In this document: positions 28,078-33,919 of the stretch, in pieces
Position numbering within the stretch: position 1 is the stretch's first letter
Layout: every line of letters begins with the position of its first letter
NCBI GenBank assembly: GCA_021736785.1
Contig: JAIPFF010000057.1
Span: forward strand, 1-34,591
Length of the DNA stretch: 34,591 nucleotides
From: Thiohalocapsa sp.
GTDB taxonomy: Bacteria > Pseudomonadota > Gammaproteobacteria > Chromatiales > Chromatiaceae
Direction: 5' to 3'
Notes under the pieces: generated by a model
Seen by the model: only the letters and a program-made list of their open reading frames with translations
What the model was told of the DNA's origin: nothing
Database searches by the model: none
Translations under genes and position numbers: made by a program

Positions 28078-28338
28078 TCAAGCATCTCGCCTGTCGGTCC
28101 GCTCGGTCGAGGTGAACTCGACGCTTGCCTCGAATCGCCCTATGGCTCGGCTTACCGTCGAGTCGTGAACGCCTAAGAAGGCTGCGATCTCCTGCTTGCT
28201 GTCGACGCCGGTGCGGAAGGCGCGGGCCATGGCCTCGTCTCGGTCCGGATCATGACGGGCAAAGACGGCGAGGGGCTTGGCCGGAGACCGACGCTGCGTG
28301 CGCGGGACTTCGCGCAGCTGATCCAGGGGCTTGACCAT
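28078..28338 (-). pseudogene. C-terminal remnant of a RAYT-like (IS200/Y1-type) transposase
   Basis: The minus-strand frame reads, from about 28338 down, LREVPRTQRRSPAKPLAVFA, DRDEAMARAF, KQEIAAFLGVHDSTVSRAI and a stop. This is the C-terminal helix-turn-helix end typical of REP-associated tyrosine transposases. The catalytic Y1 domain with its HUH motif is absent: upstream of about 28340 the frame is unrelated and coincides with a group II intron fragment on the other strand. It is therefore a truncated remnant. The 245 bases between it and the previous gene hold nothing else I can name. Confidence 0.6.
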
Positions 28339-28341
28339 TGA

Positions 28342-28712
28342 CACGTAGGTAGTGCCGAGCTGGACCACTGGCTGCGACGACGTATCCGTATGTGCTACTG
28401 CAAGCGGTGGCGCGGGGTGCCCAATCGTATTCGCCGGCTGAGGGCTTTGGGGACACGGGCATGGACCGTGATCTGGACAGCCTTGAGCTCGCAGAGCTAT
28501 TGGCATCTGTCCCGCTCGCTGGGCACGCGAACCGGGATGACCAATGACTGGCTGAAACGCCAGGGCTTGATCCAGCATTCGCGATCAACGGATGAAAGCG
28601 CATGGCTATGCCTGAAATCGTCGTGTGCTCCCTTCTTGTTAACCGCTTGAGTAGCGGGCCCGCATGCTAGGTGGTTTGGAGAGGACGGGCTAAACACCCG
28701 CCCTAACCCGAT
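28342..28712 (+). mobile_element. 3' remnant of a group II intron (maturase C-terminus plus domain V/VI-like end)
   Basis: From about 28357 to 28650 the plus strand encodes the C-terminal maturase (X/DNA-binding) end of a group II intron protein: ELDHWLRRRIRMCYCKRWRG, NRIRRLRALG, SYWHLSRSLGTRTGMTNDWL, then KRQGLI. The reverse-transcriptase part is missing, and a stop lies just upstream at 28339. After the coding end, GGGCCCGCATGCTAGGTGG and the hairpin AGGACGGG-CTAAACA-CCCGCCCT, ending CCCGAT, look like intron domains V-VI and the 3' splice end (AY). It cannot be active. The junction with the transposase remnant lies at about 28340. Confidence 0.72.
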
Positions 28713-28769: not shown

Positions 28770-29672
28770 TCATGCCTGCGGCAGCCGCACCACCAGGCGA
28801 TTGATCGGCATCGAGAAACGGCCGAGACCGCCGTGTCCGTGACGCGCGAATAGCGCCCCGATTTCGCTCAGCATCCGGGTGCGCGACGGTGGCGACAGCA
28901 AAAAGGCCGCATAGAAGAACCCCGCGGCCTCGCGCGCCAGCGCATCCGGGGGGCCAACTTGGTTCACCACCGCCGCTTCGATGCCGATGTTGGCGCCGGG
29001 GAAGCTGTTCGCCACCAACTCCGTCAGCGCGGCGGTCGTGCGCACGCGTCGATCGCCCAGATCGATCTCGCCATAGCCGGGATACTCTCGCTGTACCCAG
29101 CCGTAGATCAGGTGGTGCAGTTCGTCGTAACCCGGTGCCGTGGACAGCTCGCCATCGACGATCGCGGCCAGGATGCCCTTGGGGCGCAGCACTCGCCGCA
29201 GCTCGGCCAGGACAGGTTCGATCGGGTCCATCAAGGTCAGAGCCCAATGGCAGATCACCACATCGATGCTGTCATCTGCGATGAACCCCATCTCCTGCGC
29301 CATGGCGCGATGCAGCACCACGACCGGGTCCGGCACACGCCGACGCGCCAATGCCAACTCATCGACGCTCATGTCGACACCGATCAGGGCAACATGTCCA
29401 CCGAAGCGCTCGTGGCATAGGGCGGTGAGTGCGCCGCTGCCGCACGCCAGGTCAAGCAGGGTTCGATGCTGGACGGGGTCGACGACCTCGGCCAGCCATT
29501 CATAGCTATTGCGGCCACTTGCGTCGCGACAGCGCGCGGCGCAGGCCTCCGTGAAACCGGGGTGCTGCCGGTGCACCTCGAGCAGATGCTCGCGCAGCTC
29601 GGCCCGGCCGGGCCGCTCACCCCGTTGCAGGCGCCGCGACCAGGGCGTATCGATGTGGGTGACTTGCTGCAT
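28770..29672 (-). CDS. class I SAM-dependent methyltransferase (distal gene of the EgtD cluster)
   Basis: A 300-residue methyltransferase. ATG 29672 has GAAGGA upstream and is preferred over a TTG at 29690. SAM-binding motif I is LLDLACGSGALTAL; the acidic motif II is VDMSVDELALARRR; motif IV lies in IDVVICHWALTLMD, and LRRVLRPKGILAAIV follows. These are typical of Methyltransf_11/25-type small-molecule methyltransferases. The target atom cannot be told from sequence. It is the last gene of a five-gene minus-strand unit, about 40 bases after the MFS transporter stop, so it probably acts on the same metabolite as its neighbours. Confidence 0.88.
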   Translation of the reverse strand: MQQVTHIDTPWSRRLQRGERPGRAELREHLLEVHRQHPGFTEACAARCRDASGRNSYEWLAEVVDPVQHRTLLDLACGSGALTALCHERFGGHVALIGVDMSVDELALARRRVPDPVVVLHRAMAQEMGFIADDSIDVVICHWALTLMDPIEPVLAELRRVLRPKGILAAIVDGELSTAPGYDELHHLIYGWVQREYPGYGEIDLGDRRVRTTAALTELVANSFPGANIGIEAAVVNQVGPPDALAREAAGFFYAAFLLSPPSRTRMLSEIGALFARHGHGGLGRFSMPINRLVVRLPQA

Positions 29673-29712
29673 AGTTGTGGAATCCTTCAAGAAAAAACGA
29701 AGCCCGACAGGG

Positions 29713-30975
29713 CTAAATCGATCGCGGTGCTGGTGCCGCGTGTTCGCGCAGCAGGCTCGGCAGCATCAGCGCCAGGCCCAACGCACTGGCACAGACCAGC
29801 AGTGACAGCAGCGTTGCTTGTCGATCCAGGCCGACACCCTGATCGATCAGCAAACCCAAGATTGCCGGCGCAAGCGCGGTTGCCAAGACCTTCAAGGCCA
29901 CGACGAGAGCACGAATTGCTCCCAGGTGTGCCGTTCCGTAGAGCTCCGCCAAGGCGGCCGCCCACAAGATCGTCGCCGCGCCCGCGGTCGCACCCATCGC
30001 CGCCATGAACCCGGCGGCCGTTGCGATGGAATCACCGCTGCCAAGCAACGCGAGCCCAACCGCCAGCGGCAGCAGGAAGAAGGGCAGCAGTCGTAGTGCA
30101 CCATAGCTATCGACGAGCCAACCGCAGGCAAGCGCGGCGACGGTCCCGCTCGCGGCATAGAGCGGGTAGCAAGCGGCAAAGTCCGACAGGCTCCAGCCCT
30201 TGATCTCGACCAGATGCAACTGGTGAAAAAACACCCCGGTGATCACGAACGGGGCAGCCAAAATTCCCGGCAGTAATCCGTAGAAACGCGGGTCGCGCAG
30301 GACCTGCGCCCGAGTCCAGGACCACTCCGAGGGCCGTTCTGCTTGCGCCGTCTGCCCTGGCGTCTCGATCGAGCCATCGCTGGGCAGTCCACGTCCGAAG
30401 AGAAACAGCGCCGGTACCAGGATCACGACAACGGCGATGGCGATGCCGACCCAGATCCAGCGCCAGGTGAACAGTCCGAGCAGGAGGGCGACCAGGATCG
30501 GAAGTACGGCCTCGCCAGCCGGATAGCCGAGGAAGGTCAGACCCAGCGCGCGACCGCGCTCGCGGCCAAACCAGCGGGCGGTAAAGGTCATTGCCAGATG
30601 ACTCGTCATGCCTTGCCCGAATAAGCGCAGACCGAACAACGCGATGACCAGCCAAAGCACCGAGTCGGCCCCGGCAAGCAATAGCGCGGACCCTGCCAAA
30701 AGGGCCAGGGTCAGGGCTGCGACCATGACCGGATCGCGTGAATCCGCGACCTTACCGAGCCAGACCAGCGTCAGGGCGCTCGCGATCGTGGCGAGCATGA
30801 ACAGGCCGCCGAAGCCACCGTGACTCAGACCAAGGTCCGCTCGCAGCGGCACGGCAAACAGCGCGATGAAATAGGTTTGGCCAATGTTGGAGCTCAACGT
30901 CAGCAGCAAAGCAAAGCCGAGCGCCGCGGTTGCCCGGGTTCGCTCTGCTGGTTGCCGAAATTGGCGGGGAAGCAT
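29713..30975 (-). CDS. major facilitator superfamily transporter
   Basis: A 420-residue membrane protein (ATG 30975) with about twelve hydrophobic segments in two halves separated by a polar loop near residue 200 (SIETPGQTAQAERPSEWSW). The MFS loop 2-3 signature is recognisable as LGKVADSRDP. The first helices (TLSSNIGQTYFIALFAVPLR) and the symmetrical second half (GWLVDSYGALRLLPFF) resemble proton-driven carriers of small organic compounds. Direction of transport cannot be deduced. Its place inside the EgtD/PhyH cluster suggests export or uptake of the cluster product. Confidence 0.9.
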   Translation of the reverse strand: MLPRQFRQPAERTRATAALGFALLLTLSSNIGQTYFIALFAVPLRADLGLSHGGFGGLFMLATIASALTLVWLGKVADSRDPVMVAALTLALLAGSALLLAGADSVLWLVIALFGLRLFGQGMTSHLAMTFTARWFGRERGRALGLTFLGYPAGEAVLPILVALLLGLFTWRWIWVGIAIAVVVILVPALFLFGRGLPSDGSIETPGQTAQAERPSEWSWTRAQVLRDPRFYGLLPGILAAPFVITGVFFHQLHLVEIKGWSLSDFAACYPLYAASGTVAALACGWLVDSYGALRLLPFFLLPLAVGLALLGSGDSIATAAGFMAAMGATAGAATILWAAALAELYGTAHLGAIRALVVALKVLATALAPAILGLLIDQGVGLDRQATLLSLLVCASALGLALMLPSLLREHAAPAPRSI

Positions 30976-31024
30976 CGGCAAGCCGCAAGTCTTTGCGTTG
31001 AGGAAACAGAAGACCGGTCTCGGC

Positions 31025-31870
31025 TTAGGGGCGATTTGCTCGAATAAAGATCAACTGCACCTTTTGCGTGAATCGCCAGCTGTTCGTGTGTCGGCAAGTC
31101 GACAAATAGTCGCCGGTGATGTGGTGATCCAGCATCTGCTGCAAGCTGATGGAGTCATCGAAAACGCAGCGTTGCAAGTATCCCTCGACCTGTTGCCACT
31201 GTGCCGACGGCGCGCCGTTCTGATAGTTGATCTCCAGCGTCTCGAAACTCGCGCCCATTTGCCGCAGCGACGCGATGATCTGCTCGGCCGTGGTGTAGGG
31301 CGTGCCTTGGCCGTCCCGAAAGGCGTCAAGGTAGTGGCGGTAGAAGCGCAGATAATGGGCATCGGCACTGGCATGGGCGATGAAGCCAACGTCGCCAATG
31401 GCCCGGATGAAGCGCTCCAGGCCCGCCTGCAACTCCTCTGCCGGCAAGGCATAGAGGGCGTGCGTGGCCCAGACGATATCGAAGGCCCCGTGCTCGCAAT
31501 CGAGTGCCTGTAACGTCGAGACATACTCGCGACCCGCGACAAAGGGCCGCGCCAGAGCGCGGCGCGCCTCGGCGACGGAGAACGCCGCCGGGTCGAGCAA
31601 GGCGTAGTCGATGGGTTGGATCGCGGCCGCGGCGACGTCGGCATGCCGGATGAGGGCGCTGGGGAACTTGCCCGAGCCACAGGCGACGTCGAGCAGACGC
31701 AATGGGCGATCGCCCGCCTGTTGTTGCCGTGCCTGCAGCCAGGCCTTCCAGTCGAGGGCCTCGGCAAGATGGCGATAGTCGACAGTCGCAAGGGCATAGA
31801 AGGCCTCCATCCCGGCCCGGCCCGCCTCGCTCCAATGCTCGCAGCTGCGCTCAAAGGTATCTTCAGGCAT
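31025..31870 (-). CDS. class I SAM-dependent methyltransferase (second in cluster)
   Basis: A 281-residue methyltransferase; ATG 31870 overlaps the oxygenase stop by 8 bases. Motif I is LRLLDVACGSGKFPSALI, followed by the acidic region in IDYALLDPAAFSVAEARR and motif IV in FDIVWATHALYALP. The C-terminal half is longer than the bare fold and has an aromatic-rich part (YLRFYRHYLDAFRDGQGTPY) that may shape the substrate pocket. It is clearly different from the other methyltransferase of the cluster. Direct coupling to the PhyH-type oxygenase suggests that it methylates the hydroxylated product, for example on oxygen or on an imidazole nitrogen; this is inference. Confidence 0.87.
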   Translation of the reverse strand: MPEDTFERSCEHWSEAGRAGMEAFYALATVDYRHLAEALDWKAWLQARQQQAGDRPLRLLDVACGSGKFPSALIRHADVAAAAIQPIDYALLDPAAFSVAEARRALARPFVAGREYVSTLQALDCEHGAFDIVWATHALYALPAEELQAGLERFIRAIGDVGFIAHASADAHYLRFYRHYLDAFRDGQGTPYTTAEQIIASLRQMGASFETLEINYQNGAPSAQWQQVEGYLQRCVFDDSISLQQMLDHHITGDYLSTCRHTNSWRFTQKVQLIFIRANRP

Positions 31871-32888
31871 GCGTTGGTGACTCCGCCGGCCAGCAGACCG
31901 GATTCAGGACGCTGGCGGCAAGGTCGCCGGGTTGGGTGTCGGGTATGAACTTCTGCCAATCGCCTGACACCATGGTCGGCGCATCGACAACGCGCGCACC
32001 GTCGGCGTAGTAGGTGTTGGCCAGCACGATGCGGCTCTGCCGGGTGCGATTGGCCGCGGCGGTATGGAAGCTGAGATTGTGGTGAAAGCTGACCTCGCCG
32101 ATCTCGAAGGGGCCGTCTTCGACCGCGACCGCATGGTTGCGAAATACCGCTGCCACCTGGCGGTCATAGCTGGTGTCGAACTTATTGAAGGCGATGCCTT
32201 CGACCAGCTTGTACACATCGATCGGCCGGGCGAAGGCCAGTGGCCCCATCGCCCGAGATATGGGCTGTGCGGGGATCCAAGCCGTGACCACGTCGTGGGT
32301 GGCCAGCGGGAAGTGATGGTCATCGTAGTGCCACGGAGTGCGCCCGCAGCCGGGCTCCTTGGACATCGCGTTATCGTGATAGAGGCGCACGGCCGGCACG
32401 TCGAGCAGGTCGGCGGCAATCTTCGCGATCCGCGGACTCAACACGTAGTCGCGCAGCAGCCGGTTGTGCAGCCAAGCCAACTCAACGCTGAGAAAACGCG
32501 CCATGGTGCCGCCGTCGAGGACCGTGTCGAAGGTCGTGCTGAGCAGTTCGACGAGCTCATGACGAAGGCGTAGGGTCGCCGCGGGCGAGAGCACGCCGCG
32601 CAGCTTGATGAAGCCGTTGTCGCGAAAGAATGCCCGATCGGCGGGCGACACCGAAAACGGCGCGCGCAACTCCTCAGCGACGACGGACGCGTCGATGGCG
32701 GCAAGCTGCGGCAGCGGGTCGGCGTCGCGCAGCGCCGCCACGGGATCATCGGCATTGTCGGCCAGCGTCAGATACCAATCCCACCAGGCTTGATTGTCCT
32801 GCTCCCAGGGTTGGTCGACATCGGTGCGCCGCGCGTTCTCGCCGACGAGCTTCGGGCTGGTTTGGGCGCTCTTGCCGCCCGAGGTCAT
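31863..32888 (-). CDS. PhyH-type Fe(II)/2-oxoglutarate dioxygenase
   Basis: A 341-residue protein; ATG 32888 overlaps the EgtD-type stop (ATGA). The iron-binding facial triad is visible as HxD in WHYDDHHF (His187, Asp189) and a distal His (His275) in SFHHNLSFHTAAANRTRQ. Arg286 is placed to hold 2-oxoglutarate. FFRDNGFIKLRGVLSP is the usual start of the phytanoyl-CoA dioxygenase (PhyH) fold. PhyH relatives hydroxylate, desaturate or cyclise many small molecules, including amino acids and betaines (ectoine hydroxylase is a PhyH-family member). Given its fusion-like coupling to an EgtD-type gene, a trimethylated amino acid is the likely substrate. Confidence 0.88.
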   Translation of the reverse strand: MTSGGKSAQTSPKLVGENARRTDVDQPWEQDNQAWWDWYLTLADNADDPVAALRDADPLPQLAAIDASVVAEELRAPFSVSPADRAFFRDNGFIKLRGVLSPAATLRLRHELVELLSTTFDTVLDGGTMARFLSVELAWLHNRLLRDYVLSPRIAKIAADLLDVPAVRLYHDNAMSKEPGCGRTPWHYDDHHFPLATHDVVTAWIPAQPISRAMGPLAFARPIDVYKLVEGIAFNKFDTSYDRQVAAVFRNHAVAVEDGPFEIGEVSFHHNLSFHTAAANRTRQSRIVLANTYYADGARVVDAPTMVSGDWQKFIPDTQPGDLAASVLNPVCWPAESPTHA

Positions 32889-33919
32889 CCGCGCCAGACC
32901 AGGCAGTGTACGCTGAACAGCGGCGGTTGATCGCTGTCGGCGTCGGCGTCGGTCCAGACCTGCTCGGCCTCGAAGCCGGCGCGCCCGGCGAGTTGATGAA
33001 AACTGTCGACGCTGTACTTGTAAGAGGATTCGGTGTGGATCGATTCCTCTACTCCAAACGTAAAGCGTTGTCCGGCGACGACCACGTGCTGCTCGCGGGT
33101 GCTGATCAAGTGCATCTCGATTCGACTCGATGCGGGATTGAACCAGGCGCGATGGCGGAAGCCGGTCAGATCGAAGTCGGCATCCAACTCGCGATTGATC
33201 CGAGTCAGTAGGTTCAGGTTGAAGTCCGCGGTCACGCCGGCGGCGTCGTTGTAGGCGGCCTCCAGAATGCGGTGATCCTTGACCAGGTCGACACCCACCA
33301 GCAGACGCCCCTCTGGACCCACCAAGTCGCCGACTCGGCGCAGAAGCCGCTCGGCATCCGCTGGGTCGAAATTGCCGACGGAGGACCCCGGGAAAAAGGC
33401 CGCGCGCGGATGTTCGTGGTCATCCACCGGCAGTTCGAAGGGAACCGAGTAGTCCGCGCAGACGGCATGCACCTGCAGCGCGGGGAAGGTCGCGGCCAGG
33501 GACTCGGCAGAGTGCAGCAGATGGTCCTTCGAGATGTCCACCGGCATGTAGACCGCGGGGCTCAGGGCTTCCAGCAAGACGCGAATTTTGAGGCTGCTGC
33601 CGCTGCCCAACTCGACCAGCAGCGCGTCACGCCCAAGGCGCTCGGCCATTGCCGCCCCATGGCGGCGCAAGATGTCGATCTCGGTGCGGGTCGGATAGTA
33701 CTCCTCCAGCTCGCAGATGGCATCGAAGAGGCGAGAGCCGGGGGCATCGTAAAAATACTTAGCCGCCAGACGCTTTTGCGGGAGCATCAGGCCATGGAGC
33801 ACATCGGCACGCATGTCCGCCGGCGCTGGATGCAGGTCTTGAAAATGGACCTTCGCCGGCGCACCGTCGCTGCCGGACTGCCGCGCGAAAGTGCGCGGAG
33901 AGGTTGATGATGTGTGCAT
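32885..33919 (-). CDS. egtD: EgtD-type L-histidine N-alpha-methyltransferase
   Basis: A 344-residue protein of the EgtD family (DUF2260/Methyltransf_33). Signatures: KYFYDAPGSRLFDAICELEEYYPTR (shown here as its key parts KYFYDAPGS and EYYPTRTE), LVELGSGSSLK for SAM, FFPGSSVGNF and AYNDAAGVTADFN. Residues recalled as histidine-binding in Mycobacterium smegmatis EgtD (Asn166, Tyr206, Met252, Glu282, Ser284) have exact counterparts here: Asn183, Tyr223, Met269, Glu297 and Ser299. It should therefore trimethylate histidine to hercynine. It is the first gene of the cluster. The sulfoxide synthase EgtB that normally accompanies it is absent from the window, as are EgtC, EgtE and an EanB-like rhodanese. 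Confidence 0.9.
   Translation of the reverse strand: MHTSSTSPRTFARQSGSDGAPAKVHFQDLHPAPADMRADVLHGLMLPQKRLAAKYFYDAPGSRLFDAICELEEYYPTRTEIDILRRHGAAMAERLGRDALLVELGSGSSLKIRVLLEALSPAVYMPVDISKDHLLHSAESLAATFPALQVHAVCADYSVPFELPVDDHEHPRAAFFPGSSVGNFDPADAERLLRRVGDLVGPEGRLLVGVDLVKDHRILEAAYNDAAGVTADFNLNLLTRINRELDADFDLTGFRHRAWFNPASSRIEMHLISTREQHVVVAGQRFTFGVEESIHTESSYKYSVDSFHQLAGRAGFEAEQVWTDADADSDQPPLFSVHCLVWRG

Follow-up and report, generated by a model that had tools for sequence, protein, structure and literature searches.

The window analyzed here, 34,591 nucleotides of Thiohalocapsa sp. DNA (GenBank assembly GCA_021736785.1, contig JAIPFF010000057.1), carries at 28770–33919 five minus-strand open reading frames (ORFs) in the order EgtD-PhyH-MT1-MFS-MT2. 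Because the window is the entire contig C17, sequence upstream of the cluster is out of view. The evidence tilts toward this cluster being a biosynthetic module for an oxidized, further-methylated histidine betaine other than ergothioneine. Its genes are as follows:

32885–33919, minus strand: EgtD, L-histidine N-alpha-trimethyltransferase, 344 aa (TIGR03438, PF10017, 4pim alignment)
31863–32888, minus strand: PhyH-type Fe(II)/2-oxoglutarate oxygenase, the module core, 341 aa (PF05721)
31025–31870, minus strand: MT1, class I S-adenosylmethionine (SAM) methyltransferase, an optional module member, 281 aa (weak Methyltransf_25/23/11 matches)
29713–30981, minus strand: major facilitator superfamily (MFS) carrier, an optional module member, 422 aa (MFS_1, 126.9 bits)
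28770–29672, minus strand: MT2, class I SAM methyltransferase, a near-constant partner of PhyH (Methyltransf_11, 62.1 bits; the listed ORF extends to a TTG at 29690, 306 aa)

The tight packing described in the initial annotation of this DNA can be read directly from the sequence, with an ATGA overlap joining EgtD to PhyH and an 8-base overlap joining PhyH to MT1. The ATG at 29672, which has AAGGA upstream, is a more likely start for MT2 than the TTG at 29690. The arrangement is not due to chance, because it recurs across many genera.

EgtD of the window exceeded the cut-off of the TIGR03438 equivalog (393.9 bits versus 290.9) in a profile search and matched PF10017 at 363.8 bits. The solved EgtD structure 4pim aligns over residues 32–328, nearly the full length of the protein. 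We take the histidine pocket of the Mycobacterium smegmatis enzyme to consist of Y39, F47, Y56, G161, N166, Y206, M252, E282 and S284, and all of the equivalents are kept when the 4pim alignment is read by eye (Y57, F65, Y74, G178, N183, Y223, M269, E297 and S299). These pocket residues are invariant in a 14-row alignment except for M269.

The assignment of the second gene to the PhyH-type Fe(II)/2-oxoglutarate oxygenases, made in the initial annotation, is upheld by a PF05721 match of 56.7 bits (gathering cut-off 22) and by an intact catalytic site. H187 and D189 of the HxD motif, the distal H275 and R286 are invariant in a 25-row alignment and match, in alignment, the residues with which human PAHX binds iron and 2-oxoglutarate; presumably H187, D189 and H275 bind the iron and R286 the 2-oxoglutarate. 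Conservation within the subfamily is unusually high (mean column identity 66% in the 25 rows), and its members share an N-terminal motif, DNQxWWDWY, which as an idea might form an aromatic cage around a trimethylammonium group. The best AlphaFold model of PhyH had a predicted local distance difference test score (pLDDT) of 89.6, with two of the five models at 68.1 and 65.7, and Foldseek matched it to SnoK, SnoN, MysH, proline hydroxylase H11, EctD and GriE.

The remaining genes are less specific in their matches. Neither MT1 nor MT2 reached the cut-off of a named equivalog among the NCBIfam and Pfam matches listed, and in alignments of relatives mean column identity is 64% for MT1 (14 rows) and 59% for MT2 (22 rows), the AlphaFold model of MT2 having a pLDDT of 91.0. 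The profile and fold matches of MT2 span O-, N-, S- and C-methyltransferases and are so broad that the methylated atom cannot be named from them. The best NCBIfam match of the MFS carrier was of the L-lactate type, at 72.2 bits far below its cut-off of 320. A terminator-like hairpin with a T run lies between MFS and MT2 (29701–29714, minus strand), a kind of site that was no commoner in the scan than in shuffled sequence.

A scan of genome contigs recovered 149 relatives of PhyH, and the locus counts given here refer to the best 80 of them. Their hosts belong to SAR11, OM43/Methylophilaceae, Rhodobacteraceae, Rhodospirillaceae, Filomicrobium, Chromatiaceae and further groups, and several are marine or halophilic by name, with habitats uncounted; carriers with strain numbers include Thiohalocapsa halophila DSM 6210, Thiorhodococcus minor DSM 11518, Jannaschia donghaensis CECT 7802 and Rhodovibrio sodomensis DSM 9895. 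Within 6 kb of PhyH, MT2 was present at 77 of the 80 loci, EgtD at 44, MT1 at 33, EgtB at 20 and the MFS gene at 16, numbers that are lower bounds because some contigs end early. At two of the three loci lacking MT2 the contig ends there (L003 and L027), and at the third (L018) it does not. The most frequent gene sets were MT2+EgtD (20 loci), MT2+EgtD+EgtB (20), MT2+MT1+MFS (15) and MT2+MT1 (13), and gene order varies, being PhyH-MT2-EgtD in SAR11 and EgtD-PhyH-MT1 in the window. The EgtD-PhyH link that the initial annotation had proposed to survey is thus conserved and goes together with MT2, while the five genes that it had grouped as a unit resolve into a near-constant core, PhyH and MT2, and two optional members, MT1 and MFS.

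Variation around this core includes seven alphaproteobacterial loci (L036, 8001–13490, and six alike) in which a gene that appears sodium-symporter-like by eye (c24) follows PhyH-MT2, with MFS and MT1 downstream on the opposite strand. In SAR11, the run EgtB-PhyH-MT2-EgtD at L033 (2101–11169) and similar loci is flanked by genes that, named by eye, are glutamate-cysteine-ligase-like, ATP-grasp-like, EamA-/MFS-like transporter and cupin-like; possibly these are thiol genes.

Across whole genomes, carriage of PhyH is accompanied almost without exception by EgtD. A first set of 50 of the 80 loci corresponds to 49 searched genomes; 22 further loci led to 21 genomes, among which only G033 was already in the first set, and the other 8 loci lie outside both sets. 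EgtD was found in 47 of the 49 genomes and in 20 of the 20 new ones, or 67 of 69 overall. By comparison, 103 of 398 evenly drawn Pseudomonadota contain EgtD at E <= 1e-20, a threshold that all 67 also pass, and the PhyH subfamily (E <= 1e-60) occurs among those 398 only in the genome of the window. The Fisher test of 47/49 against this phylum background, uncorrected for kinship or habitat, gave a p of 1e-22, which overstates the case given the relatedness of the genomes and a background unmatched by habitat. Within the order of a Pelagibacteraceae genome, PhyH was present in 3 of 117 genomes, the central one included, and is thus patchy in SAR11; 12 of the 117 have EgtD over its cut-off, among them all three with PhyH (hypergeometric p 8e-4).

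EgtB is the partner of EgtD in the aerobic ergothioneine pathway. The whole-genome counts for EgtB leave out 30 of the 80 loci, including all 19 SAR11 loci that have EgtB beside PhyH. Among the 49 PhyH-bearing genomes of the first set, 22 match EgtB at more than 300 bits, 18 of them above the cut-off; G033 has broken pieces only, and in 26 EgtB was not found, save for a 25-bit partial match in G043. In 14 SAR11 and five OM43 genomes among these 26, TIGR03440 was without a match at E <= 0.001 and no EgtB candidate turned up, and in all 19 EgtD lies beside PhyH or MT2; SAR11 and OM43 are streamlined surface-ocean bacteria with few dispensable genes. EgtD was found in 25 of the 26 EgtB-less genomes and lies beside PhyH or MT2 in 22 of them (in G037, about 0.9 kb past MT2), being elsewhere in three SAR11 genomes (G016, in fragments, G018 and G019). 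In the 22 EgtB-bearing genomes it adjoins EgtB in 20 and lies elsewhere in two (G036 and G048). EgtD thus appears to be placed with whichever partner uses its product, because it lies beside EgtB in 20 of 22 genomes and beside PhyH or MT2 in 22 of 26. The EgtD-PhyH association in 22 genomes without detected EgtB is as expected if hercynine is diverted from ergothioneine.

Nineteen of the 20 loci with EgtB near PhyH are from SAR11 and have EgtB-PhyH-MT2-EgtD in one run. Their PhyHs are nested among those of EgtB-less SAR11 in a quick tree of modest support, which suggests that EgtB joined the SAR11 run later. In two EgtB-less SAR11 genomes (L137, 5912–11005, and L138, 5565–8364), EgtD lies near betaine uptake genes of the ProX/ProW type, with ProX over and ProW under the cut-off; one of these EgtDs scored just below its own cut-off (282.2 versus 290.9). 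At L137, EgtD is separated from the ProX/ProW-type genes by a GcvT/dimethylsulfoniopropionate (DMSP)-demethylase-like gene, which scored under its cut-off, and by one further gene without a name.

Other chalcogen products were considered. Selenoneine and ovothiol were set aside as no SenA or OvoA homologue was found among the five cluster genes in NCBIfam and Pfam searches; two EgtB-type proteins, one from contig C64 of the window's genome and one from SAR11, were under the cut-off of the SenA and OvoA models. Ergothioneine made by an alternative sulfur route was also disfavored, there being no EgtB in the cluster, with the search for EanB covering only the rhodanese domain. Matches to that domain (PF00581) occur in all 26 genomes searched for it, in a domain search that is not specific to EanB; the listed frames are of at most 322 aa in the 19 SAR11/OM43 genomes and larger in G000 and others, EanB itself having several rhodanese domains and some 450 aa.

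The phylogeny of EgtD is consistent with its having been acquired by the module more than once. In a tree of 66 EgtDs, 42 of them PhyH-linked, the label "near PhyH/MT2" versus "near EgtB" changes at least six times, a count that is soft because gain and loss are undistinguished, the groups were named after the neighborhoods were known, and several rows are long-branched. A single clade of all 42 PhyH-linked EgtDs was rejected (approximately unbiased test, p-AU 7e-48). EgtD appears to have arrived independently several times, in SAR11, OM43, Rhodobacteraceae, Chromatiaceae (the window) and a group of L059, L078 and L081, which is the plain reading of the tree because EgtD is far commoner than PhyH. 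The scattered pattern probably reflects repeated recruitment, and repeated association with the same partners usually points to a common pathway.

The genome of the window (5.2 Mb in 96 contigs, 99.95% complete, 3.05% contaminated) itself contains a second PF10017 gene, an egtD on contig C64 adjoining the genome's sole full egtB (575.5 bits, cut-off 360). Given this egtB-egtD pair, the window EgtD, which is 72% identical to that of C64, is the second copy in the genome. The absence of a sulfur-insertion gene stated in the initial annotation therefore holds for the cluster, where profile searches found no EgtB among the five genes, and fails for the genome. The situation that it had named as contrary to its own reading, an egtB elsewhere served by the window EgtD, was found only in its first half, the egtB of C64 having its own egtD alongside. 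EgtD is present in 9 of 10 genomes of the genus and PhyH in 3 of 10, and only the window's genome, among those searched in the genus, has two EgtDs. A wider search of relatives found the PhyH subfamily in 3 of 56 genomes, the window's included (G000, G173 and G174), with a fourth match (1.7e-35) to a distant PhyH. Contig C17 is unlikely to be a contaminant, because its EgtD clusters with EgtB-linked copies from the same genus and its PhyH, in a quick tree, with those of Thiohalocapsa and Thiorhodococcus (SH-like approximate likelihood ratio test, SH-aLRT, 88).

A Group II intron RNA (RF02005, 137 bits) lies near the end of the contig (window 34243–34491, plus strand), a repeat that probably broke the assembly there. 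Beside the cluster, a 166-aa ORF (window 28078–28578, minus strand) has weak helix-turn-helix matches, all under cut-off, and a C-terminal part that we take to resemble a REP-associated transposase; it is possibly a transposase remnant. A phage-borne origin of PhyH was rejected, since no relative matched in phage records and none was among the 21 stretches picked out of viral contigs by a pattern scan. Four plasmid relatives of PhyH (28–43% identity) were found, and the two inspected have other neighbors.

We propose that EgtD would trimethylate the alpha-amino group of histidine to give hercynine, and that PhyH would oxidize hercynine, most simply by C-H hydroxylation, as its intact facial triad and hydroxylase fold neighbors suggest. 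MT2 would then methylate this product at the new hydroxyl, an imidazole nitrogen or the carboxylate; MT1, where present, may add a second methyl group, and the MFS carrier may export or import the product or a precursor. A genome that has a hercynine supply from an egtB-egtD pair could run the module without an egtD of its own, and egtD may have joined the cluster where hercynine would otherwise not be made or where having a supply of its own is an advantage. From the genes, families, catalytic residues, conservation, co-occurrence and tree pattern, which are read from the sequence, we infer the substrate, the sequence of reactions, the atom that is methylated, the direction of transport and the role. 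The modified, non-ergothioneine histidine betaine of the initial annotation gains from the conservation of EgtD-PhyH-MT2, including in the 22 genomes without detected EgtB, and loses from the egtB of the host genome. The computed [M+H]+ of the proposed compounds are 214.119 for the hydroxylated product, 228.134 with one methyl group and 242.150 with two, compared with 198.124 for hercynine and 230.096 for ergothioneine. More tentatively, and with doubt slightly prevailing, SAR11, OM43 and many halophiles may make hydroxylated, methylated hercynine (e.g. C10H17N3O3, 228.134, or C11H19N3O3, 242.150, with MT1), which would place hercynine at the center of a further betaine pathway, free of sulfur, alongside that of ergothioneine. 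The marine and halophilic carriers suggest, weakly, that the product is a compatible solute; the hint is a weak one because the ProX/ProW neighbors may be coincidence and one EgtD there is below cut-off, and an antioxidant or signal is equally possible.

Several observations weigh against a dedicated hercynine module. Thirty-six of the 80 loci have no EgtD within 6 kb of PhyH, and Rhodosalinus sediminis (G038) has PhyH, MT1 and MT2 with neither EgtD nor EgtB found in its genome; it is a real counter-example unless the substrate is imported. G033, a poor metagenome-assembled genome with two PhyH loci and broken EgtB, also had no EgtD that was found. The presence of EgtB within the neighborhood at 20 of the 80 loci makes a sulfur-containing product possible there, and a distant PhyH relative on a Streptomyces plasmid (43% identity) has unrelated neighbors. 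Because EgtD is common in the genus with or without PhyH, their co-occurrence says little there; the changes on the EgtD tree cannot separate gain from loss; and absences carry less weight than they seem to, many of the genomes having been assembled from single cells or metagenomes.

Other explanations were considered. The strongest of them, itself unlikely, is that PhyH and MT2 tailor ergothioneine or an EgtB intermediate into a modified thiol or thione, as the EgtB-containing neighborhoods (19 of the 20 in SAR11, all with MT2 and EgtD) and the egtB of the window's genome would allow; the 26 of 49 PhyH genomes in which no EgtB was found (in 22 of these EgtD adjoins PhyH or MT2) and the nesting of EgtB-bearing SAR11 PhyHs among EgtB-less ones (in the quick tree) argue otherwise. 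PhyH, MT2 and MT1 might instead act on an unrelated substrate, EgtD being linked to them by shared stress or osmotic physiology and no common pathway. G038, the loci without nearby EgtD and the two SAR11 genomes with EgtD near ProX/ProW-type genes instead are what this would predict, but it is hard to square with EgtD in 67 of 69 PhyH genomes, with the scatter of PhyH-linked EgtDs on the tree and with the gene overlaps in the window, and we consider it rather unlikely.

A reversed order would have histidine modified at the outset by PhyH and/or MT2, with EgtD then trimethylating the modified amino acid; it needs the same gene set, and gene order does vary between SAR11 and the window. The window EgtD, however, keeps the residues that we take to hold unmodified histidine, and in 20 of the 22 EgtB-bearing genomes EgtD is beside EgtB and not PhyH, as if an ordinary EgtD were enough, so that this order seems improbable. 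Less probable still is a chance placement beside PhyH of a window EgtD that does no more than boost, as a spare copy, the hercynine available for ergothioneine: it does group with EgtB-linked EgtDs of its genus, in a genome that has an egtB-egtD pair and is alone among those searched in the genus in having two EgtDs, but it overlaps phyH in operon-like fashion, and EgtD neighbors PhyH/MT2 in other lineages too. The hercynine-modifying module is the reading that we favor.

Such a module would resemble the aerobic ergothioneine pathway (EgtD-EgtB, with EgtE) in having a genuine EgtD for hercynine and would differ from it in that EgtB is missing from the cluster (and was not found in 26 of 49 genomes with the module), its place being taken by an oxygenase together with a single methyltransferase or two. 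In the carnitine/trimethyllysine route, a betaine-forming N-trimethylation is likewise followed by 2-oxoglutarate oxygenases acting on the quaternary amine (TMLH and BBOX); lysine and other oxygenase families are used there, in contrast to histidine, EgtD and PhyH here. EctD, of the PhyH superfamily, is a 2-oxoglutarate-dependent hydroxylase whose substrate is a small solute of bacteria from saline habitats, and it has a related fold by Foldseek, but it is absent from the PhyH sequence matches, and the DNQxWWDWY motif and the EgtD/MT2 partners are features of the window subfamily. SnoK/SnoN and MysH are the best sequence or fold matches of PhyH among solved structures, and the metal and 2-oxoglutarate residues of SnoK and SnoN align with those of PhyH; identity in the fold alignments is nevertheless about 16–22%, and the substrates are polyketides and, for MysH, presumably mycosporines.

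Hercynine is treated as an intermediate of ergothioneine. In the open-access literature searched, we found no paper that joins hercynine with phytanoyl-CoA dioxygenase or ergothioneine with SAR11, none that links Pelagibacter, phytanoyl-CoA dioxygenase and methyltransferase, and none on histidine betaine as a halophilic osmolyte; hydroxyhercynine or a hercynine hydroxylase was not named, only "hydroxyergothioneine". This is no proof of novelty. Hercynine itself is known from cyanobacteria (PMC3826126). 6-Methylhercynine from a Characella sponge is C-methylated at imidazole C-2 and has no hydroxyl (PMC8779493); it shows that further decoration of hercynine can occur in marine holobionts, in this case by C-methylation without the hydroxyl of the product proposed here. 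The proposed histidine-betaine pathway would branch from ergothioneine synthesis at hercynine. If this is true, the pathway would add a new class of betaines to marine and hypersaline chemistry and would explain the egtD genes of genomes that lack EgtB. The presence of egtD alone would then be no proof of ergothioneine synthesis, and the carriers that are numbered strains would make the module directly testable.

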